A DNA stretch of 64,000 nucleotides, taken from assembly GCA_026545225.1 (NCBI GenBank), contig CM048845.1, forward strand, positions 53,978,033 through 54,042,032. The letters are read 5' to 3'. The position numbers and the translations under genes were made by a program. Below the pieces are notes generated by a model, which worked only from the letters and a program-made list of their open reading frames with translations, did not search any database and was not told where the DNA came from. Of this stretch, positions 3,808 through 53,763 are shown piece by piece. Within the stretch, counting starts at the first letter, position 1. Every line of letters starts with the position of its first letter. This DNA comes from Cornus controversa. Lineage: Eukaryota; Streptophyta; Magnoliopsida; Cornales; Cornaceae.

Positions 3808-4515
3808 TCAAGCTGGAGAATAGATGTCCCGGATTCTCAGCTTGGCAAGAGCAGAATTGAACACCTTGCTAGAGACTCTCTTAGTCAAAACATCAGCAAG
3901 TTGATCCTCTGTCCTCACATAGGGAGTGCAAATCACACCTTTTGTTAACTTCTCTTCGATAAAGTGCCTGTTAATCTCAACATGTTTAGTCCGATTATGT
4001 TGCACAGGATCATAAGCAATGCTGATGGCTGCCTTATTATCACAATATAGCTTCACGGGACTTTGACAAGCAATCCTCAATTCTTCCAATATGATCTTCA
4101 ACCATAATAATTCACACACATTATGGGCCATAGCTCTTAATTCAGCCTCGACACTAGACCTAGCCACAACCGATTACTTCTTACTCCACTAAGTAACTAG
4201 ATTGCCACCCAGAAATGTGCAATGTCCTATAGTTGATCTTCGATCCGAAATAGAACCCGCCTAATCGGCATTTGAATAGGCCTCTATTACAGAGTGTTCA
4301 TGTTTCGAAAACAAAAGGCCCTTACCAAGTGCTGATTTCAAGTATTTGAGTATCCTCTCTACTGCCTGCATATGAACTTCATGTGGCTCGCACATGAATT
4401 GACTGACAACACTTACTGCATAGGCTATATCAGGTCGTGTATGAGCCAAATATATTAGTTTTTCAACCAACCTCTGATATTTCTCTGTCAATAGGTGTAT
4501 CATCAGTCTGTTCAC
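3808..4515 (-). pseudogene. Copia-1 RNase H and RT C-terminus
   Basis: Two open segments lie in different frames. 4261-4515 carries the RT thumb/connection signature (LIYLAHTRPDIAYAVSVVSQ) and ends at SNAD. 3808-4167 carries the Copia RNase H signature (SSVEAELRAMAHNVCELLWL, YCDNKAAISIA, RTKHVEINRHFI, ADVLTKR). The stretch between them (about 4168-4260) is interrupted by stops, so the RNase H catalytic region is split. Function is known from the family (degradation of the RNA strand of the RNA:DNA hybrid); this copy cannot make it as one polypeptide with RT. Confidence 0.85.
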
Positions 4516-5476
4516 CCAATCTATGATTTTGTTTGATAGGAGTATCCATAGGCTTGCAGGCTAACATCACTGTCTCAATTAAAAGATCAAGTACATACTT
4601 TCTTTGTGAAACAAAGATTCCCTGCTTTGAACGAGCCACTTCAATACCTAGGAAATATTGCAGAACACCCAAGTTTTTAATTGCAAATTCCCTGGCCAAA
4701 TGTATCTTTAGTCTCCTAATCTGAGTATCATCCCCGGTCATGATGATATCATCCATATAGACAATAACAACTGTAATTCTACCCCCCTGAGAGTTTCGAA
4801 GGAATAACGTATGATTTGCTTGACTAGGACGATATCCATACTTCTGCATAGCTTGTGCAAATCTACCAAACCATGCTTTAGGAGACTGTTTCAGGCCATA
4901 TAATGATTTCTTTAGTTTGCATACTTTCCCCTTATTAGTACTTTCACCACTACCTGGAGGAATGTCCATGTTCACTTCCTCCTCTAGATTGTCATGGAGG
5001 AAAGCATTCTTCACATCAAACTGTTGGAGAGTCCACTCCAGGTTAGCTGCTAAAGATAAAAGAACCCGAATAGTGTTCATCTTCACGACTGGAGCAAACA
5101 TCTTCTGATAGTCAATGCCATATGCCTGAGGATAGCCCTTTGCCACCCATCTTACCTTGTATTGGTCAATTGACCCATCTGCCTTATTCTTTATGGTAAA
5201 TACCCATTTGCAGCCAACAGTTTTCTTCCCTTTCGGCAACTCCACTAACTCCCACAAAGAGTTTTTTTGGAGAGCTCTCAATTCTTCAACCATTGCCTCT
5301 TTCCACCTTGAATTGTCAAGCGCATCCTGTAATTTTTTAGGAATAGATGCAGAAGACAACTGATGGGCAAAAGCCTTAAAGGATGGAGAGAGATGATGGG
5401 AAGGCATAAAACTTGAAATAGGATATTTATATTTTGACTGACAAGTACAATGTGATTTTCTCAAGGTAATAGGCAA
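4463..5476 (-). pseudogene. Copia-1 reverse transcriptase
   Basis: A 337-codon open frame covers most of the RVT_2 domain. It has KWVFTIKNKADGSIDQYK, the first catalytic region QFDVKNAFLHDNLEEEV, KSLYGLKQSPKAWF, the catalytic YMDDIIMTG and the FLGIEVARSKQGI block. The metal-binding DD of YMDD is intact. The frame ends at 4463 and overlaps the next segment (4261-4515) in another frame, so a frameshift near 4470-4510 breaks the polyprotein. The N-terminal ALDNSRWKEAMVEELRAL segment, normal at the start of Copia RT, is present near residue 52. Confidence 0.88.
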
Positions 5477-5563
5477 TTCTAAGTCATTAACAACATTGGA
5501 ATCATCTGGAGCATTAGGAGGAAGATGATTAACAGTAGATGCTGAGTAAGAAGTAGTGAAAAC

Positions 5564-16787: not shown

Positions 16788-17206
16788 AATCACCTTCTTC
16801 TTCATTGCCCTAGAGCAAGGGAGGGATGGGATTTACTTTGTGTTATTTTTGGAGTTCAGTGGGTCATGCCTAAGTCGGCAGTGAGCTGTATTACAACTTG
16901 GGATGGATTTCGGGTGCGGCGTGACATTAGGCATTCATGGAGGTTGGCTCCTCATTGCTTATGGTGGGCCTTATGGAACGAGTGGAACAAAAGATATTTT
17001 GAAGATATTGAACACCCTTGGGGAGTTTTTAGATACTCTGTTCTTAGTGTCCTTTTCTTTTGGTCGGAGGGTTCCTTTTGTAATTCTTCGGAGTCCTTGT
17101 TGACTTTTGTAGATAGTTTAAGGCTTTGATTTTCTTTGTTCTCTGGGATGCATCCCCCGTTTGGTCGTTTTTCAATGAATTCTTTACTTATCAAAAAAAA
17201 AAAAAA
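16788..17206 (+). mobile_element. 5'-truncated L1 LINE tail
   Basis: The C-terminal zf-RVT-like segment is readable at 16866-17129 (WRLAPHCLWWALWNEWNKRYFED), the end of plant L1 ORF2. It is followed by a 3'UTR and a poly(A) run ending at 17206. The flanking duplication AGCTATACTGA is at 16777-16787 and 17207-17217. The truncation point is the left TSD, so this is a standard target-primed insertion with loss of the 5' part. Confidence 0.88.
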
Positions 17207-17217
17207 AGCTATACTGA

Positions 17218-18116: not shown

Positions 18117-21100
18117 TTAAAAGTTTTCTTTATGAAATTCAAATTTGGTGGAGGTCTTCTGAGAGAAATCTGAAGCTAGCTTTCTTAGCAACTTTGTAGG
18201 TCCTGGTGGCCCACAGTAAAATACCCCTGCATTTTTAAAAGGACAAACTCCATTAAGATTATACAAAGGTGTAACTGATGTGTAGCATAGTACTAGTCAT
18301 TAATTGTTATTAGGTGTTACTAGACATGAGTTGTTATCATCAATGAAAAAAGTACTACCACTGCTATACATATGGATCTTTCATCTTTTTGTATGGAAAT
18401 GACAGAAAGTAAGAAGGGAAAAAAATTCCAAATTAAGATGGAAGCTATGAATATGAAACCTAAAACAATCTCGTTGAAAGAAATAAATAATAAATAATTC
18501 ATCCGAGATCACCAAAAAAATATTATCTTTCGGCCAAAGTAGTGGCTACATATGTTTGTACAAAAATGACAGAGAAGGAAAGAAGAGATTTAAAGTAGGG
18601 GATGTGAACCCTAAAACAACCTAGAAGAAAGAAATTTGTGTTATAACAAAAGACTAAAAATTATAATTTGTAATTGATTTGTAAAATAAACTTCATAATT
18701 GCTGTCATCGTTAACAAGAAACACTACCACTACTGTGTTGCGTTGTGCCTTTCATCTTCTTTCTTTCTTTATTTTTATCTACTTTTAAATTTTTTAACAA
18801 AGGAGGGTGTCCCCACTCTCTTCAGGGGCGGGACTAATCCTTTTGGATACCCGCAACAACTGCAAACCACAAAGATCATGTATGAAGGTTTTCAATGCTC
18901 CCAGAAATAGAACACAGGACCTCTAGATTAAATCAGGAGGCCTTATGCCAACTTGGCTATTCTGTGGAAAAGATTTCATCTTTTTATATGAAAATGACAG
19001 AATGCATAAAAATTCTAAATTAGATGGAGGCTCTAAGTGGTATGAACCCTAAGATAATCTCCATGAAAGAAATACAAAGGTAGGATAAGTTAAGTGCGAT
19101 AATTAAAAAACCAATGAATCTTTTATAGATAGGATACTTCTTTTAATTATTTACATTTTCTCAGTCAAAACATGTTGCAAAATCTTTTTGTATGGAAAAT
19201 GACAAAGTAGAAACAGAAAAAAGTTTCAAGTTAAACAGAAGCTATGAATGTACTCTCTGAAAAATACGTGATATAATATTAAAAACTCTTAATATGTATT
19301 CTGTGTGTAGTTGTCCTTAGAAATTACCAAATGCTTTCCTTACCTACATTTTCTTGGTCAAAACATAGAGCAACATATTTTTACATGGAAATGACAGAAC
19401 GTGAAAGAAAAAAATTACATTAGACAGAACATAACATCTATATATTTTATACATAGGCGGCTTTAAGAAACAAGCTCATCGCTTTATTACCCACTACATC
19501 ATATTAGTTATAGTATGAGGTAACATCTTCTTGTATGAAAGTGGTTAACATCTTTTTAATTAAATGACAAAAAGTAAGGAAGAAATATTTTTCAATTAGA
19601 CAAAAACTTTAAATGTGAAACCTAAAACAACCAAGGCCTATGGTCTAGTTGTATCTCTTCTTTCAAAGTGAAAGGTAGAGGTTCGAGTCCTTTTTGTCAG
19701 GACACAAAATATAATAATAATAATATCTTGATGAAAGAAATACAGGAAACAATCTAGCTGAAAGGAATATGAGGCAGAAATTAAAAATTATAGAACGTAT
19801 ATGCATTCAATACTGATAACTCATATTTCAGCTGTATACAAAAATAATACATTAGGTATTAGAATTAATGAGACTCACCAACTCTAGCATCAGTGTGCTT
19901 GAGAGCTATGTGTTCGTAGACACTGTGCCAGTTAGGCTTGGCGAAATGGGACTTCACACGGGTACCAGAGACAACATCAACACCATTCTTGGCATGGTTC
20001 AGTGACTGAATCATGGCAATAAGAGCCGAGCGAGCGTCACCTTCTTCGTGGACACTAGTGCAGTAGTTGTGCATCTCTATCACTCCCTTATGATCCTTTT
20101 CAGCAACCTCATTCATCACCCCTTTAAACCATTCAAATGAGCCTTGTTCCCTTGTCATCCAGTAGAAGTATGCCCTTCTCGTATTGAAGTTACTACCACC
20201 ACTCCCTGGTGGTGTGTTGTCACCACCAGTCACTCCATTCTCTAACGCCTTCTCTTCTTCCTCCACGGCCTTCATGTTGTTCACAATGTCCTTGACAATA
20301 CTGATCATCGGTGTTGCCCCAATTCCCAACCCCACTAGCATCACCACTTCATATTTCTTGTAGTCTTGTGCTGGTGCCCCATACGGACCATCAATCAACA
20401 CTCTTGGAAAACTGTGAATCATTCCATCAATCAATCAATAATCATCGCCATCATATTTGTTAAGAGCAATGCTAGTGACAATCGTGACGATTGATGAGTT
20501 GGGTGGAGCCCGCATAGTGTTCACCGCATATAATGGATGAGATTGGAGCGAGTTGTGACTGTCTTCAAAGCATACCTCTTCAACTAAATGCAACTTGCTA
20601 GTTTCAAAAACATGGATGATTTGTTTCTCAAAAAGATATGCAATGTCTTTAATCATCAACACATTCCGAAAAACGTTTATCAAGATTATCGACAATCAAT
20701 CAATCCATCAATAATCATAATCATCGTCATCAATTCAATTAAAAACTAAAGGAAGTAGTGATTGTTGTGAAGATGAGGTGAGAGAAGTCCATGTGGAGCT
20801 CATCTCATTCAACTGGATAATCACGCTTGCGCAATAATGATTGTCCTAAGCATTCCTCATCCATTAAACATAACTTGTCCTTCTTCCAAAAGCATGTTTG
20901 ATTTGTGTCTTAAAAGGATCTATAAAGATGGTTAAATGTCTATGCCCGAGAATCTCCAACAGTAGATGAAAATGACTACATGCACTTTAACTCTTGGCCC
21001 AATCATATTCAGTGCCAGTCGATGAGAGGATGGGTGCACATGGTTGTTACATGTCCCTATCTATGGTTTAGTCATATCTGATGACATTATTTATACAGGC

Positions 21101-24100
21101 AATATCTTTGTTTTTTGTTTTTCTAAACATGATTAATAGTGAAGCAGTGAAGGTATTGTGTGAATGAAATACTCAGAAATTACTTACTCTAGGTTGTTCT
21201 CTCCTTGCAAACAGTCTGCTCTGAGGAGTCCACTTTTCCCACTAGGTGGTGCCTGGCACACGTAATAAAAAACATGTAGAGTTTAGTTTAGTTTAAAATT
21301 TAAAAGTACTATGCCAAATAAGAATCTCGAATCTATCCCATATAAATTAATAATTTACTGTGTTTTTCTTTCCTGTGAATTTAATAATTTCCGAGTTGCT
21401 TCTAGGTATCACAAATAATTCCTGAAGTTTTTTCTTTAATTATTATGAATTGAATAATTAGAGAAGGAGACCTCATCTTTTTATATTTTTAACATGCAGG
21501 GTTGAAAGTTATTTCTTAGAATTGTTTTTTTCCCCTAAATTCTAAATAATTTACCAAATGACTTCCAGAATTATGTATCCTTACCATGCTTACTGACATT
21601 AGAAAGAGGATATCATCTTTTTTTTTTTTTCATGATTTTGACATTATATATGATAAAAATTATACATGATGACAAGCATTTCTGATTGTTCAATTTGTTG
21701 GATTGATGGGTTTTCACACCATGTCAGCAAAACATATATATACTGACATATATGATTTCATAGTTCATTTTAACATTGTGGAAGTAAATAAGTGTTGTTT
21801 ACCATCAATATTACTTGATCAGTTTGAACATGACATGATTTTATCATTATAAGATGAGCTAGTGATGCTATGCTCTAGCTGTACCATATCAACTATTATT
21901 AGGGAACTGCCATTATCAATTTTCTACACAGGCTGCCATAGAACTTAACCCGATCTTCCCAGAGGAAGCAAAATTGCCATACCAAGAAAACACACGCACA
22001 CAAACAGAACAAAAAAAAAAAACCCTCACCTGTGAGAACACAGTTTTGAGTTGTCGTGTCCAATCGCCAATAGCTCGGATATGAACGCTTAGGTAGTCAT
22101 CTCCAGGGGCTGAAGTAATGGAGAATGGGTGCCTGTTAATAAGTAAGACATTAGAAATTAGCAAACTAAGCAATAAAAAGTGGAAGACTTGGAAAAAGAT
22201 AAATAAAAAAAAAGAAAAAACCTAGCCTCTATGTATTTTAAGATATTATATTGGAGAGAGTTCAATATATCCACAAAAAATAACTATAGATTTAGTATAA
22301 TGATAAAATACAAACAACAAATTAAAGTATTAACAACTAAAAGTATCAAAAAATTAAAACCAAGTCTCTATATATAGTATATGATAAGAACGCTTACCAC
22401 TCAAACGGAGAAACAGCAGCACAGTTGACAAACATGTACTGCCCACTTTGGTATTTGAAGCCCTGAGGCTTTGACATGTGAATTGCCAAAACATTTCCAG
22501 GATAAACATCCGCCTTCATATTTCAATGTGAACATAAATTCAGGCATATATTAGAATAGAACTTTTTTCCTTTTTACCTTACACACACATGTACAAAGAC
22601 GACCAAATTGTATACCTTTAGTATCTTGACAGGCTTGATACTAGATCTAAATGCTCTAATGAATCTTTCACCAGCATATAGTGTAATTGGAACTGCCAAG
22701 TACATCCAGGTCTGTAGATTTGAAGATTCATATCATGATAAGAACAGATATAAGTATGGGTTGAGATGGAAGATGACAATGTACTAACCGTTTTCTTGTA
22801 CCATTCATGGGTTAAGTAAAGCTTGATGCCATGCACAATTAGAAGAGTGTACACAATAACGAAGAGGTGGTGTGAATACCAAAAGGCGTTGAAGCCAGTG
22901 AGCTTCTTGAGAGTGTTGGGCAGATTTGGGTTGCCTCGCCTCAACCATGGCAATGCAAGTGCAAAGGCTATTGCCATAAAAACTACCATCAAAATCCCTG
23001 TCACCCCCTCCACTCCCTTTACAAAATGCCAGTAACTTGAAGGCTGTTCCCCAAAATATTTCTTCATCAGCTCATCATATTTCTCACGATCTTCATCAAG
23101 AAGGCGAGGAAAATCACATGCTAAATGAAAAATCCCATGTATCCCAACCCCAATTGCAATTGCCACTGCTATTATCTGAAAGGAAAACTACCAATTTCAG
23201 CGTCAACCATTTACAACTTAAATGAATATAAATACATACATTCATACATACATATATATATATATCAAAAATAAAGAGATTAGAATTACTTGGTGGAAAT
23301 TTATGTTGTCATCAAATGGAATGGCTACACCTAGTTTGGTCTTGTTTCTGAGCCAGGTGATGGTGTTTCGGCAGACCGGTAGTAACATCAGAGCCATGTT
23401 CAACTTGAGAGTCTCAGCTGCGCCTTTTGCCATACAAACACAATAACCCATTACCTCATATGCAGCTTTATTTCGGTACTGCACAAACTTGTATGCAAAT
23501 AGTCCCAACATAACCCCAATCCAGAGTGTTATAACCCAAGTCCTCTGCCAGTTATCCTGCAAGAAATACTTGAAGTCCTGATACCATCTCGTTAATGTGT
23601 TTTTCTCCTGAGTAGGCTTAAGCTTCTGACTCAACAGTTGGCTTAAGTTATGGCTTTTGCCTTCTCTTGCAGAATGGTTTGGAGCTTGCAACAATAGCTT
23701 CTCCAAGTTTTCTATCTGTGTAAGAGATTGCCATGTAAGAATTTTGGGCTTCCATTGATTGTTATTTTGTCTTAAAATTTAAAGAAAATCTGGATTGATG
23801 ATTGAGACCAAATAGTGAGTTATCAGATACCCTATAAGGATGTGATTGTAAAGTATTTGGGGTTATGGTGTACCTTGCCACATGTGATCATGTGTCTTGG
23901 AATATGGTTGAAGAATATAGTTACCGATCATGATCAGAATTACACATGGTAGGGATAAACTCCTTAATGGGATGAGTCTTATCAAATATTATCTATACAC
24001 AGCCCTGGTCAGCCCCCCGCGCACCCCCACCCCCCCCCCCCCCCCCCCCCCCCCCACCCCCCCTCACACGTATGCTCAATACTGTTAGCCTAGCCCCATT

Positions 24101-24691
24101 GAATAGATGTCTGAGCGAGAGTGGAGAGGGTGGAAGAACAGAACATTTTCTTGTTTCTTGAATCTGAATAATTTAATTGATGGTTTCCCCAAAGGTTGGA
24201 AGACCAAAACAGAGGTTGGATTTCTTCATTTTCTGGCTTCCTTCTAGATTTAGAAATGGCTTCAGCAGGTATGTTTAATCAGTTAATTATTATCAGCGTG
24301 TTTTAAGTATGTGTCTGGTTTTCTAATTTAGTTTACATGCCATTCAAAAAAACAGATTTTTTGGTACTATATATAATTTATGTTGCTTAATGTTGTGTAC
24401 CATGATGTATTTATGATTCTCTGGATCTAACGCTTCCATGATCAAGGCTGCATATTCGTCGGCCTGCTTTTTGATATTCGTGAGCTTGTTGGCTGAAGCA
24501 CTAAGGCTGATAATCTGCATATACAAATTATTGTTTCATTTAGATATTGAGAAGAAGATGCCAAATTACACAGAATGCAGTTCTTAACGAAGGAGATTGC
24601 AAACTATTTATTTTTCTTTTTTGATGCAGAAAGTGTAGCTTCAAAACACATCATATTTGGACTCAATAAGCTGATAGTTCAACATACTACA

Positions 24692-24727
<36 letters not shown>

Positions 24728-25842
24728 CATATATATATACCTCTCTGACTTCTTCTTTAGTGATTCTGCCATCTGCATCTTTATCAACCCTGCAACAATA
24801 TACCAACTAGCTAGTCAATATCAATAAATATATATATATATATATGTATGATGATGATGATAATACAGGAAACGATTCATGTATAGGCATTATTCAATGG
24901 ATTTTCTTGTTTCTTACATGTTGAAGAAAGTTTTAAGCCTAGAGTCGAAGCTCTGATCTGAGATTTGATCCCAAAACTCTTTTAGCTGTGCCTTGTTGAT
25001 CGAATCACCCACTATATTCCGCCTCCTGGCAAGCGCATTGAAGAGCTCACCTGCAAACTCTTTCGACTCCATATTCATCCCTGCCATTAAGTGGATATTG
25101 GAATCTATTTAGACAACTTTTAAATTAAACTAACACAAGCACCAAGCTTGAATGCAACACAAAAAGTTCCAAAAACTATGCTAATGATAGCAAGAATTTG
25201 TGGTTTACCTATGCATTCACAGAAGAGCGAACGAGGAAGCAAGCCACCGGTGGAAGCAGTGAGCTTATTGAACTGGTTCTCCACCAAAGCCCATTCAGCG
25301 CCACAATCGGTCTTGCTGATGAACTTGAGCCCCTTTAAAGCATGAACTGCAGCCGACTTAGTCCTGTCATAGCGACTTGCCTTGGCTCGCTTGGACAATG
25401 AAGCCAAGCGCGTAAGCTCTTTAGTCACCTGCCTTAACCGTGAGGAAGCATTTCTAACAGCTGAGCTGCCGAAAGAAGACCTCTTCTCCGGGCATTTGGC
25501 CTGCAAAGTCAGCTCAGAATCTTCTACATAGGCTCTGGTGGAGGTGGTATTGACGCTCTGAACAGCCACAGAGTCGTCACTGACTTTGAGAGTGATCTCG
25601 ACACAGGTGTTGTCATCGGACTTTGTGCTGCTGCCACCAGTTGTACTATTGGTGGTGGTGGTGGTGAGTTCGGGAACGTTGAGTTCGGTGCTCTTTTCTT
25701 CAGGTTTTTTGGTTAGAGGTCCACTTAAAGGACCACTTAGAGCTGTTCTGTCAACCCCAACTATATCCTTGTCATAGTGGTGGTGGTGGCGATTATATTC
25801 ACTCTTAGTCCCTCTCACATCTTCTGTATCCGTTTTCTGCAT
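18117..25842 (-). CDS. RBOH: Respiratory burst oxidase homologue (plant NADPH oxidase), possibly damaged
   Basis: The protein moves electrons from cytosolic NADPH through FAD and two haems to oxygen outside the plasma membrane, giving superoxide for defence, growth and stress signalling. Twelve exons give about 927 residues, normal for the family. In order: variable N-terminus; NADPH_Ox region (about 120-265); EF-hand [12 protein letters not shown] (268-279) and a degenerate second hand DPENHKYIM; ferric-reductase membrane domain (about 345-620) with haem-histidine segments [17 protein letters not shown] and [22 protein letters not shown] site [12 protein letters not shown] (from 663); NADPH sites [10 protein letters not shown] and GLGIGATP (741-748); HNYCTS; the conserved Cys in VFYCG (896); terminal FHKENF. 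The start at 25842 is preferred to an in-frame ATG at 25929, which reads through a GA microsatellite and lies too close to the TATA box. Exon 10 carries a splice and frame lesion. It resembles RBOHC/D types. Confidence 0.93.
18355..19640. repeat. Dispersed degenerate 100-bp repeat series in RBOH intron 11
   Basis: About six diverged copies of the block 'catctttttgtatgg-aaatgacagaa-gtaag..agatggaagctatgaatatgaaaccctaaaacaatct..gaaagaaat' occur near 18365, 18550, 18965, 19178, 19372 and 19550. They lie 150-400 bp apart, all in the same orientation. Confidence 0.65.
18790..18960 (-). mobile_element. SINE-like tRNA-derived element in RBOH intron 11
   Basis: The minus strand starts with an A-box-like TAGCCAAGTTGGC (18947-18959), followed by AAGGCCTCCTGATTTAATC and a decayed B-box region GAGGTCCTGTGTTCTATTTC. 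This spacing matches plant tRNA-derived SINE heads. Boundaries are approximate and no clear target duplication was found. Confidence 0.5.
19632..19728 (+). mobile_element. SINE head with intact pol III B box in RBOH intron 11
   Basis: The A-box-like TGGTCTAGTTGT (19641-19652) and perfect B box GGTTCGAGTCC (19680-19690) are about 30 bp apart, as in tRNA genes. They are followed by an (ATA)n-rich tail near 19708-19726. No tRNA cloverleaf or anticodon arm can be folded from it, so it is a SINE and not a tRNA gene. It is antisense to RBOH. Confidence 0.6.
21189..21261 (-). other. RBOH exon 10 lesion: AC acceptor and 1-bp deletion
   Basis: On the minus strand the intron end reads ..TTATTAC then GTG TGC CAG GCA CCA CCT AGT. 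The family has [16 protein letters not shown] here, so the expected acceptor AG is replaced by AC at 21262-21263. Then AGTGGAAAAGTGGACTC lacks one base relative to the AGT-GGN-AAA-AGT-GGA-CTC needed for S-G-K-S-G-L. Using CCAG (exon from 21252) leads to a stop within the exon. Using the next AG in CCTAG (exon from 21241) restores frame as W-K-S-G-L-L-R-A-D and loses about seven residues of the loop between the FAD and NADPH lobes. Confidence 0.8.
24026..24063. repeat. Poly(C) tract in RBOH intron 4 (poly-G in the transcript)
   Basis: A run of 26 C (24030-24055), one A, then seven more C is preceded by other C-runs. The sense strand of RBOH is therefore a long G tract, able in principle to form a G-quadruplex. 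Length may be affected by sequencing. Confidence 0.9.
24680..24846. repeat. AT microsatellites around RBOH exon 3
   Basis: (AT)n/(ATAC) runs lie at about 24690-24740 and 24828-24847. They flank the 49-nt exon 3 on both sides; the first abuts its donor site (GAG|GTATATA). Confidence 0.9.
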
Positions 25843-33059: not shown

Positions 33060-33584
33060 TCTAAAATAAACCAAAATGTCATCAATGAAGACAATAACAA
33101 ACTAATCTAAGTACGCTCTGAACACTCTCTTCATCAGATCGATGAAAACAGTTAGGGCATTTGTCAACTCAAAAGGCATAACCCAGAACTCATAAGATCC
33201 ATATCCAGTAAGAAAGGCTGTCTTCGGTACATCCTGTTCCCTAACTCGAAGCTGGTGATACCTGGATATCAAATCTATCTTCGAGAAGTAGGTGGCTCCT
33301 TTCAGCTGATTGAACAGATCATTAATCGTTGGCAAATGGTACTTGTTGTAGATTGTGACCTTATTCAACTCTCTGTAGTCTATCCAAAGGCCATCCTTCT
33401 TTTTCACAATCAACACCGGTGCTCCCCATGGTGAAGCACTCTTGTGAATGAATTTTTGAATGAGGAGTTGCTGAATCTGATCTTTCAGCTCCCTTATTTC
33501 CATAGGTGCCATTCTGTATGGGGCCCTAGTAATAGGTCTAGTGCCTGTGGCTAATTCAATCGCAAAATCTATTTTACGACTCAA
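33060..33584 (-). pseudogene. Gypsy-1 reverse transcriptase
   Basis: Blocks seen are [60 protein letters not shown] (first catalytic aspartate in KIDL) and [18 protein letters not shown] stop follows RVFRAYLD, then the catalytic VIVFIDDILVYF continues in the same frame at about 33100-33060. The active-site residues are present but separated by this stop. Confidence 0.88.
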
Positions 33585-33894
33585 TGGTAGCTTTGGAATT
33601 TCCTAAAACACATCCTGGAAGTCTCACACCCCTAGAATGGAATCCATATAAACTGTAATTCCCTCCGGAGACTCCTCACTAATAAAGAACAAGTGAGTAC
33701 TAAACCCTCCATTTGATTAGGGCATAGTAACCAAATACATCTCTTGGCCCGGTATGACAAAAATAATTTCCTTGACAATTAACCCGGGCATGATAATACG
33801 ATAACCAATCCATCCCGAGTGTGACATCATATGAATTCATGTCCAAAACCAATAGGTCTGCCAGGAACCTGAGTTTGCCAATGTCTATAGTGAC

Positions 33895-48580: not shown

Positions 48581-50356
48581 TCAGCATGGAAAATCTTTGA
48601 GCTGCCGCATCCCAATATTGTGAACCAGTTTCTTGAATGTCGTGGTAGGCAGAGCTTTAGTGAACAGGTCTGCCAAATTATCACACGAACGAATTTGCGG
48701 GACATCAATATCACCATTTTTCTGAAGCTCGTGAGTATAAAAGAATTTTGGTGAGATGTGCTTGGTTCTGTCTCCTTTGATATATCCTCCTTTGATTTGA
48801 GCAAGACATGCAGCATTATCTTCGTATAATATCGTTGGGATATTATTTATTGAGGAGAGTCTACAGTTTTCTCGAATATGCTGTATCATAGATCTTAGCC
48901 AGACACACTCTCGGCTCGCTTCATGAATTGCGAGTATTTCAGAATGATTTGAAGAGGTTGCTGTCATTGTTTGTTTCATGGATCTCCATGATATAGCAGT
49001 GTCACCACAAGTAAATACATATCTGGTCTGTGATCGAGCTTTATGTGGATCAGAGAGATAACCTGCATCTGCATATCCAACTAACTGAAATTTTGATTTA
49101 TTTGAATAAAACAATCCCATATTAGTGGTCCCACAAAGATATCTCATTATATGCTTGACACCATTCCAATGTCTGCGGGTTGGTGCAGAACTGTACCGTG
49201 CCAGTAAGTTGACTGGAAAAACGATGTCCGATCGTGTGCAATTTGTAAGATACATCAGTGCACCAATAGCACTCAGATATGGAATTTTCGGACCAAGCAA
49301 TTCTTCATTATCTTCTCGAGGACGAAATGGATCTTTCTTCACATCAAGCGATCGGACGACCATTGGAGAACTTAATGGATGAGCTTTATCCATATAAAAT
49401 CGCTTGAGAACTTTTTCTGTATATGTTGACTGATGGATAAGAATTCCGCTTGGTAAATGCTCAATTTGTAATCCGAGGCAAAATCTCGTTTTTTCAAGCT
49501 CTTTCATTTCGAATTCTTTCTTTAAATAATTAGCAGTCGCGGTGAGCTCATCAGGAGTTCCCACAAGGTTTAAATCCTCAACATATACTGCTATAATTGC
49601 AAATCCAGATCCTGATTTTTTAATGAAAACGCATGGACAGATTGGATTATTTACATATCCTTCTTTGATTAAGTACTCGTTAAAGCGATTGTACCACATG
49701 CGTCTAGACTGCTTTAATCCTTACAACGATCGTTGTAACTTGATTGAATACATCGACCATGGTTTTGAAGCAATTGCTTCAGGCATTTGAAATCCTTCAG
49801 GGATTTTCATATAAATATCACTATCAAGTGATCTATATAAATATGCTGTAACCACGTCCATTAGATGCATATTCAGCCTTTCTGTGACTGCCAAATTAAT
49901 CAGGAATCGGAATGTAATTGCATCCATTACCGGAGAATATGTCTCCTCATAATCAATACCAGGCCTTTGTGAGAAACCTTGTGCCACTAAGCGGGCCTTG
50001 TATCTCATAATTTCATTTTTCTCATTTCTTTTCCGTACAAATACCCATTTGTACCCTACAGGCTTAACACCTTCAGGTGTCTGGATTATTGATCCAAATA
50101 CTTCACGTTTTTTCAGTGAAGTTAATTCTGCCTGTATTGCCTCTTTCCATTTTGACCAATCATTTCTGCGTCGACATTCGTCAACGTATTGAGGTTCTGG
50201 ATCCTCATTATCTCTTGCAATATCAAGAGCAACTGCAAAAGAGAATATGTTGTTGACAAGAACATCATTTCTATTCCATCTCTTTGCATAATTTATTGAG
50301 ATCTCATCATTTTCAGGTACGACTACCTCTTTTTGTGCCTCATCAAGGGCTATCAT
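48581..50356 (-). pseudogene. Copia-2 reverse transcriptase and RNase H
   Basis: One frame is broken by a single stop (TAA, 49721-49723) in RSL-stop-GLKQS, where the family has tyrosine. Upstream part (49721-50356): KWKEAIQAELTSLKKREVFG, YKARLVAQGFSQRPGIDYEE, the first catalytic region LMDVVTAYLYRSLDSDIYMK. Downstream (48581-49699): YVEDLNLVG, where the family has YVDD, so the first active-site aspartate is glutamate; FCLGLQIEHLPSGI; RNase H blocks SSNHSEILAIHEASRECVWL, YEDNAACLAQIKGGYIKGDR and the end NLADLFTKALP. The substitution and the stop both predict loss of activity. Confidence 0.9.
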
Positions 50357-50520
50357 TTCTTTAGGGGCTATTTTTGCTCCCTTTGTAAGTATAGCCTCCT
50401 CAAGATTGCCATCTTCTTTATCTACTTTCTCTTGTACTTTCCTTTTTCGAGGAACAGTATCTTTTGCACCAATGGGTCTCCCACGCTTCAGGCGTGTTTT
50501 AGATGCATCTGCTGCAATAC

Positions 50521-52113
50521 TTATAGATTGTCCAACAGGGACACTATTCGTGCTGGGAAATTGGCAGCAGGGATATGAGATTGTATCATTTTACTTGTAT
50601 CAGTAAATGCATCTGGCAATTGATTTGCAATACTTTGCAAATGAATGATTCTCTTAACTTCAAGTTCTCTTTGACTTGTAGGGGGATCAAAATGTGATAA
50701 TGCCGTAGCATTCCAAGTGATCTCATGTTGTTCAGGCTGTGTCATTTCTCCCCCTAATGGTGGGAATACCACCTCATCAAAATGACAATCAGCAAATCTT
50801 GCTTTAAACAAATCTCCTGTCATAGGTTCAAGATATCTAATGATAGATGGAGAGTCAAAACCTACATAAATTCCAAGTCTACGTTGAGGGCCCATTTTTG
50901 TTTGTTGTGGTGGTGCAATAGGCACAAAGACAGAACAACCAAAAACTCGTAAATGAGAGATATTTGGTTGTTGACCAACCATAAGTTGTAGAGGTGAAAA
51001 ACTATGGTAAGCAGTTGGTCTAATACGAACTAATGATGCTGCATGCAATATGGCATGTCCCCAGGCTGACACAGGGAGTTTTGTTTTTATAAGTAATGGT
51101 CTGGCAATCAATTGAAGACGTTTTATAAAAGATTCTGCAAGACCATTTTGAGTATGAGTGTGGGCAACAGGGTGTTCAACATCAGTGCCAATAGACATGC
51201 AATAGTCATTGAACGTTTTAGATGTAAATTCTCCGGCATTATCAAGACGAATTGCCTTGATTGGATAATCCGGGAATTGTGCTCTTAAACGAATTGTTTG
51301 GGCCAAAAGTCTAGCAAATGCTACATTTCTAGTAGAAAGTAAACAGACATGGGACCATCTAGTTGAAGCATCAATTAAAACTATAAAATAACGAAAAGGT
51401 TCACATGATGGGTGAATAGGTCCACATATATCTCCGTGGATCCTTTGTAAGAAATCAGGAGATTCAACAACAACTTTTGAAGGAGATGGCCTCACAATCA
51501 ACTTTCCTTGTGTGCATGCAGTGCATGTATTATCACTTGTTAAAAGAATTTTCTGATTCTTTAATGGATGCCCATTTGAATTTTCAATAATTCGGCGCAT
51601 CATTGTTGACCCAGGATGACCAAGGCGATTATGCCATAAAATAAAATTCTTGGGGTCAGAGCACTTCTGGTGCATCACTACATGTGATTCAATTGCTCTT
51701 ATCTTCATAAAATATAACCCAGAAGAGAAAGCAGGGAGTTTTTCTAAAACATGCTTCCGACATGAAATAGTTGATGTAATGCATAGATATTTCATACTCG
51801 CTTTATTTATTGTCTCAATATGATATCCGTTATGACGTATATCTTTAAAACTCAACAGATTTCTCTTGGATCTGGTTGAGTAGAGAGCATCATCAATATG
51901 CAATTGTGTTCCACATGGTAACACAATATTAGCCCTTCCAGAACCATCAATCAAGTCTATGGAACCTGATATGGTATTAACATTAGCTTCAGCTAATGTT
52001 ATATAGGAAAAATATTTTCTATCTCTCAGGATAGTATGTGTCGTGGCACTGTCTACCAAACATATATCTTCATCATTTATCTTGGATGTGGGCAATGCAT
52101 TGATCAAATCCAT
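50521..52113 (-). CDS. Copia-2 protease and integrase part of polyprotein, open frame
   Basis: A 530-codon open segment. The protease site DSATTH is near residue 21, a D-S-A-T variant of D-S-G-A in this lineage. GAG-pre-integrase: LWHNRLGHPGSTMMRRII and CTACTQGKL (zinc HHCC). Integrase catalytic residues lie in IHGDICGPI, IRLDNAGEFTSKTF and NGLAESFIKR, so the D,D,E triad is intact. The C-terminal part has LRVFGCSVFVPI and LGIYVGFDSPSIIRYLEP. The frame ends at 50521 after a +1 shift near 50545; the original reading continues (NSVPVGQSI..) in the RT frame. It is not an independent gene. Confidence 0.88.
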   Translation of the reverse strand: MDLINALPTSKINDEDICLVDSATTHTILRDRKYFSYITLAEANVNTISGSIDLIDGSGRANIVLPCGTQLHIDDALYSTRSKRNLLSFKDIRHNGYHIETINKASMKYLCITSTISCRKHVLEKLPAFSSGLYFMKIRAIESHVVMHQKCSDPKNFILWHNRLGHPGSTMMRRIIENSNGHPLKNQKILLTSDNTCTACTQGKLIVRPSPSKVVVESPDFLQRIHGDICGPIHPSCEPFRYFIVLIDASTRWSHVCLLSTRNVAFARLLAQTIRLRAQFPDYPIKAIRLDNAGEFTSKTFNDYCMSIGTDVEHPVAHTHTQNGLAESFIKRLQLIARPLLIKTKLPVSAWGHAILHAASLVRIRPTAYHSFSPLQLMVGQQPNISHLRVFGCSVFVPIAPPQQTKMGPQRRLGIYVGFDSPSIIRYLEPMTGDLFKARFADCHFDEVVFPPLGGEMTQPEQHEITWNATALSHFDPPTSQRELEVKRIIHLQSIANQLPDAFTDTSKMIQSHIPAANFPARIVSLLDNL

Positions 52114-52249
52114 TTTCTAAAAAGAAACAAACTTCATTACATTAATAAAAGTATAATTACAAACAAAACTTGTAATAATATACTAATAAAAATCAAAGGA
52201 AATGATATCAAATTGATGTGAACATTTTCATCATTAGTCAACTGATTTA

Positions 52250-53260
52250 TTTATTTCAGGGAGGTCTTTATAGATATCTGAAATATCAAGATGATTGATG
52301 GCTATCGGTTCATAATTTTCGATAGCATTTGTTTCAATCTCTTTTTTCTTCCATATTCCTTTGATTTGAAGCTTGATATAGCTCAATGAAGTGTTTGGGC
52401 GTTTCGGCAGGTCTGTGACCAATGCCCTTTCATACCACAGCGAAAGCAAGCATTTTCATATTGTTTGGAGGTTGCATCGGCATACCTTTCAATTTTTCTT
52501 GCTTTGCCCCACTTGCATTTCCTTCATGATAATATGGTGTGTAGTTCCTACTAGGAAACTCAAATGAAGGATAACCACCATAATTATTATTTCTACCGCG
52601 GCCACGACCACGACCAAATCCACGACCACGTCCACGACCGCGACCATTAAAAGATGTTGAATGTGCTTCAGTTAATGAAGTTGGTCCGATCTGGCGGGAT
52701 ATGTGGTTTTCTAATAAGAACTCATTATTTTGTTCAGCTACTAATAAGCAAGATATCAACTCAGAATATCTTGTAAAATGTCTCTCTCGATACTGCTGCT
52801 GGAGGAGCAAGTTCGAGGGATGAAATGTGGTAAATGTTTTTTCTAACATATCCACATCATTTTTAGGCTCTCCACATAAAGTCATTTGGGAGCTAATTCG
52901 GAATAGAACTGAATTATATTCTATTACCGATTTATAATCAGACAACTTCAGTTTTGACCAGTGGTCTCGAGCTCTTGGCAGGATTATAGTTCTCTGATGT
53001 TCAAACCTATCCTTCAAATTTTTCCAGAGTACGGACGGGTCTTTGAATGTAAGATACTCGGATTTTAAATCCTCATGTATATGGTGGCGAATGAAAATCA
53101 TTGCCATTGCCCGTTCTTGCATAGATGCTTTATTTTCTTCTTTGATCGTCTCTCCCAAATTTTTAGCATCTAAATGGATCTCGGTATCGAGAATCCATGA
53201 TAGGTAATTTCTGCCCGAAATATCAAGGGCAGTAAAGTCGAGCTTTGCAAGATTTGACAT
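52250..53260 (-). pseudogene. Copia-2 gag, frameshifted at the zinc knuckle
   Basis: ATG at 53260 (MSNLAKLDFTALDISG) opens the capsid: NYLSWILDTEIHLDAKNLGE, AMIFIRHHIHEDLKSEYLTF, LWKNLKDRFEHQ, then an arginine/glycine tract (RGRGRGRGFGRGRGRGR). The frame ends after NMKMLAFAVV. The zinc knuckle CFRCGMKGHWSQTC (CX2CX4HX4C, complete) is in a second frame near 52435. The conserved tail HFIELYQASNQ is back in the first frame, and ETNAIENYEPIAINHLDISD is in a third. At least three frame changes occur within 250 bp. Confidence 0.88.
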
Positions 53261-53763
53261 TATCAGTATACTATATTGGAAGAGAAATATTGTTAGAATT
53301 TTATATGTAAGCATATTGACATTATGAAATAATATAAATATGAACATGTCACTTCGCAATTGGGAAGGACTTTATATATAACATATATATATATATATAT
53401 GTAAGTATATTGACAGAATAATATAAATATGAACATGTCACTTCGCAATCGGGAAGGACTTTATATATACATATAAGTATATTGACAGAATAATATAAAT
53501 ATGAACATGTCACTTCACAATCGGGAAGAACTTTATATATACATATTTATTATATATTTATATGTATATATAGATATATTAATAGATAGTCAATATATTT
53601 ATATAAATATATAGATTATATATTTATCTATTGAAATGACATAAAATAATTTTTTTTTGTACCTTTTACTTGTCTTCTCCGTTGGTCAGAACCTCGTGCT
53701 TTTACTTGTCTTCTCTGGTGGTTAGAACCTCGTGCTTTTACTTGTCTTCTCTGGTGGTTAGAA
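53261..53763 (-). repeat. Copia-2 5' leader with two tandem arrays
   Basis: 53300-53545 has three units of 72-89 bp ('tgaacatgtcacttcgcaatcgggaaggactttatata' at 53341, 53430 and 53502). 53661-53772 has three 36-bp units containing GAACCTCGTGCT (53689, 53725, 53761), the last running into the PBS. AT-rich DNA separates the arrays. Confidence 0.88.

Follow-up and report, generated by a model that had tools for sequence, protein, structure and literature searches.

A one-base non-canonical acceptor at intron 9 of an otherwise intact RBOH gene in Cornus controversa

One of the 11 intron ends in an RBOH (NADPH oxidase) gene of Cornus controversa is not AG, the acceptor position of intron 9 reading AC as a preliminary description of the locus had stated, and the gene is otherwise intact and ordinary. 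The anomaly is a one-base non-canonical acceptor, representing either a variant or a sequence error. The gene was analysed within a stretch of 64,000 nucleotides from contig CM048845.1 (GenBank assembly GCA_026545225.1), referred to here as the window. The best explanation, which is given about an even chance of being correct, is a single-base acceptor change in an ordinary RBOH gene, with partial retention of intron 9 and partial use of an AG that ends nine bases into exon 10 (the +9 acceptor).

The complete RBOH coding region (18117..25842, minus strand) runs from ATG to TAA and comprises 12 coding exons in the window gene model, with lengths in 5' to 3' order of 634, 163, 49, 114, 426, 387, 96, 116, 103, 74, 533 and 110 nt. 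The model gives 934 codons followed by a stop; phase is consistent at 11 of 11 junctions, and there are no internal stops. Eight Pfam families matched the predicted protein. Scores above cut-off were obtained for NADPH_Ox (PF08414, the RBOH-specific N-terminal domain, 126.9 bits), the ferric-reductase membrane domain (PF01794, 48 bits), FAD_binding_8 (PF08022, 126.3 bits) and NAD_binding_6 (PF08030, 166.5 bits), and the four EF-hand models that matched were all below their curated cut-offs. With predicted N-terminal, membrane, FAD- and NADPH-binding domains, the gene is classed from its sequence as a plant RBOH. Part of exons 1–5 was colinear with the solved chain 3a8r_A (E 1.6e-53), which we take to be the EF-hand region of rice RBOHB, and this alignment supports the junctions of these exons. 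A tblastn search of the window with the protein (E up to 1e-3) returned only pieces of the same gene and no second RBOH copy. The features surrounding the anomaly are listed in Table 1.

Table 1. Features around the intron 9/exon 10 border of the RBOH gene (positions in the window)
Feature	Position	Strand	Remarks
Exon 9	22030..22132	-	Ends ...TTC TCA CAG|gtgagg, phase 0
Intron 9	21262..22029	-	GT...AC, 768 nt, donor CAG|GTGAGG
AC dinucleotide at expected acceptor	21262..21263	-	In place of AG
Exon 10	21188..21261	-	74 nt, no deletion; extent inferred from frame and homology
V-C-Q bases (residues 697-699)	21253..21261	-	Nine bases lost if +9 acceptor used
AG of +9 acceptor, CCAG|GCA	21253..21254	-	In frame; first exon base 21252
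AG of +20 acceptor, CCTAG|TGG	21242..21243	-	Out of frame; stop at codon 721
Exon 11	19879..20411	-	Canonical acceptor, phase 2 in, begins T TTT CCA AGA GTG

Ten of the 11 introns of the gene were GT-AG, intron 9 being the sole non-canonical one, and together with the in-phase junctions this favours a single acceptor change. The AC lies directly 5' of the V-C-Q codons (minus strand ...GTTTTTTATTAC|GTGTGCCAG...), the border between intron 9 and exon 10 reading ...GTTTTTTATTAC|GTGTGCCAGGCACC. Exon 10 is inferred to start at GTG, as phase 0 from exon 9 then reads on without a gap in the predicted translation, a continuation that presumably agrees with the RBOH consensus, and the cysteine of V-C-Q was aligned to a cysteine in all three of the printed NOX2 alignments. 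In frame, the exon reads GTG TGC CAG GCA CCA CCT AGT GGG AAA AGT GGA CTC CTC AGA GCA GAC TGT TTG CAA GGA GAG AAC AAC CTA GA|gtaagt, entering in phase 0 from exon 9 and leaving in phase 2 to exon 11. The 1-bp deletion that had been described in the S-G-K-S codons is absent, since AGT GGG AAA AGT is complete and in frame with exons 9 and 11; perhaps the frame was lost when the reverse complement was read. With one lesion present and no deletion, the argument that two lesions are repaired by one splice choice falls. As a separate observation, the acceptor of exon 8 (first base 22513, minus strand) reads TGAAATATGAAG|GCGG; it is AG and in phase, but its end is rich in purines and a clear pyrimidine tract is lacking.

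An AT-AC intron was rejected, the donor being GT (CAG|GTGAGG) and not AT. GTGAGG is a GT donor of the ordinary U2 type, and this, like the presence of an AG 9 nt downstream, argues against true GT-AC splicing of intron 9 at the inferred border, which would yield the 934-residue protein and would account for V-C-Q codons being kept right up to the AC. Such an explanation is highly improbable, introns of this type being very rare: minor non-canonical combinations do exist in plants, yet all together they average 0.09 % of RNA-seq-validated splice-site combinations, according to one survey (PMC6310983). The term GT-AC was not found in two open-licence texts on non-canonical plant splice sites.

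Each splice alternative was tested by translating the whole RBOH gene. Use of the +9 acceptor gave 931 residues with one terminal stop and the loss of V-C-Q only, whereas the +20 acceptor shifted the frame and ended translation at codon 721, for which reason it was rejected as a rescue site. The preliminary description had assigned these outcomes the other way round, with CCAG|GCA leading to a stop and CCTAG|TGG rejoining the frame. Its proposal that a nearby AG restores the frame stands in so far as an in-frame AG exists close by, but the site is CCAG at +9 and not CCTAG at +20, and the loop V-C-Q-x-P-P-x-G said to be removed shrinks to V-C-Q. Skipping of the 74 nt exon 10 shifted the frame, and with intron 9 retained translation stopped at codon 734, short of the NADPH-binding domain. 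Downstream of the AC the +9 AG comes first, and the nearest upstream AG ends 56 nt before CCAG, making the +9 site the natural next choice under a scanning model; acceptor scanning is stated to occur in plants (PMC3017782). Between the start of intron 9 and the end of exon 10, the protein was left intact by only two of 45 AGs, +9 and the poorly scored +63. The position of the +9 AG as the first after the AC and its place among these two favour the explanation of leaky splicing.

Candidate acceptors were also scored with a crude matrix built from the 10 other acceptors of the gene, which predicts poorly. The +9 acceptor ranked fifth among the 45 AGs; those outscoring it lay 645 and 111 nt upstream of the border and at +41 and +46 in exon 10, and all of them led to premature stops. 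When each real acceptor was scored with itself left out, +9 (−1.53) outscored only two of 10, the lowest real acceptor scoring −4.25. The four higher-scoring AGs weaken the best explanation, although the matrix does not decide the matter because some real acceptors score poorly when left out. The first in-exon AG was in frame in three of the 10 other exons with an acceptor (exons 8, 11 and 12; about one in three expected by chance), so that an in-frame next AG needs no special explanation here; an AG that was both in frame and within 12 nt occurred in one of the 10 (exon 11).

The preferred explanation holds that the usual acceptor of intron 9 would be unusable since its AG reads AC. The spliceosome would then retain the intron in part, giving the truncated frame ahead of the NADPH-binding domain, and the remaining splicing would move to the first downstream AG, CCAG|GCA. 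The product would be a 931-residue oxidase, probably active, whose linker joining the FAD and NADPH lobes lacks only V-C-Q, and the gene would be a leaky, reduced-output allele and not a new kind of oxidase. In the Arabidopsis mutant egy1-4, AG is changed to AC at the end of EGY1 intron 3; amplicon sequencing showed the intron retained in 51.69 %, with AGs lying 6 nt downstream and 16 nt upstream used in 22.97 % and 12.04 %, respectively, besides smaller classes (PMC11420051). By analogy, retention mixed with the use of nearby AGs is expected in the present gene, the first downstream AG being the productive one here. In egy1-4 the exon that follows also carries four substitutions and a 5-bp deletion (PMC11420051), and this unclean parallel, like the share taken by the upstream AG, weakens the preferred explanation.

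The egy1-4 figures, with the intron retained in about half of transcripts, can also be read by analogy as pointing to a splice-null allele or very young pseudogene, in which nearly all transcripts would retain intron 9 or run into premature stops and be degraded or cut before the NADPH domain. This is rather unlikely, even though retention and exon skipping both break the frame and 43 of the 45 candidate AGs would damage the protein, as the coding exons show neither a stop nor a frameshift over 934 codons. An assumed model of neutral decay predicts 2.2–3.5 disabling changes at 1 % divergence after the loss, with a probability of none of 0.11–0.03, a rough bound that depends on assumed indel rates. 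Any such loss would have to be recent, because the coding exons carry no disabling changes. The very recent pseudogene proposed earlier survives in a weaker form, as a possible splice-impaired allele; neither decay nor processing is apparent, the 11 introns being present and the reading frame unbroken.

Loss of V-C-Q is likely, on sequence comparison, to have a mild effect on the protein. The 934- and 931-residue forms matched the same eight Pfam families, which favours the preferred explanation; the score for FAD_binding_8 fell from 126.3 to 123.6 bits (−2.7) and the other seven scores stayed within 0.1 bit. Nine sequences of solved relatives were matched, and in the five printed alignments that the V-C-Q comparison covers the stretch varies in length. 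The three residues were gapped in two of the five, both DUOX1, and the other three, all NOX2, placed A-C-G opposite V-C-Q and lacked a longer stretch just after it. The A-C-G kept in the NOX2 alignments leaves some doubt that the loss would be tolerated. An AC that has become fixed in the lineage, with the +9 acceptor used constitutively to give a functional RBOH without V-C-Q and with altered activity or the loss of a cysteine, is unlikely.

A wrong base in the assembly, or the assembler's choice of a minor or heterozygous allele, would mean that the plant itself has an ordinary AG acceptor and makes the 934-residue protein. This comes after the preferred explanation as a possible but clearly less probable one: a single base explains the whole anomaly, and no damage is seen in the rest of the coding sequence, not even in the V-C-Q codons, which an acceptor shift would place in the intron. 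Against it, the window contains no N, and the exons have no frameshift or stop hinting at poor assembly. This argument from a clean assembly is tempered by a run of 26 C (24030..24055, plus strand) in intron 4 of the gene, inside a C-rich array (24013-24063), a likely spot for an assembly or length error.

Elsewhere in the window, pieces of a Copia-type retrotransposon (48584..53371, minus strand) matched GAG-pre-integrase, integrase core and RVT_2, with a gag match below cut-off and the reverse transcriptase split across two adjacent ORFs. Further retroelement pieces lay at 4466..5563 and 33105..33602 (both minus strand; RVT_2 and RVT_1 matches). An open frame at 16788..17207 (plus strand), without a Pfam match, runs into 15 A (17193-17207) and resembles by eye the 3' end of a LINE. 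No Rfam family matched in the window at the gathering score.

The anomaly has little bearing beyond annotation, where gene prediction restricted to AG acceptors would place exon 10 wrongly or report the RBOH gene as broken. A real allele would offer a natural test both of how the plant spliceosome deals with an AC that is followed 9 nt later by an in-frame AG and of whether the RBOH inter-lobe linker tolerates the loss of three residues.

Compared with known plant RBOH NADPH oxidases, the present gene has the same domain order (EF-hands, ferric-reductase, FAD_binding_8, NAD_binding_6). Its 12 coding exons agree with two Aquilaria species, in which the majority of Rboh genes contain either 12 or 14 exons (PMC10893762), whereas an intron 9 ending in AC differs. 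Splice variants of RBOH genes are mentioned, citing work on Arabidopsis and maize, in another study (PMC7934426); in open-licence literature, searches for an RBOH splice variant with an in-frame deletion, and for RBOHD with pseudogene and splice site, found none. Tandem-acceptor (NAGNAG) shifts in plants resemble the +9 shift in causing a small in-frame loss at the start of an exon, but their spacing is 3 nt and not 9 nt, and the upstream site here is not AG, so that the two sites are not both ordinary acceptors. A further likeness is to egy1-4, with its AG-to-AC acceptor change and a downstream AG a few bases away; egy1-4 differs in its further next-exon changes and in a +6 site that causes a frameshift, whereas the +9 site of the present gene is in frame.
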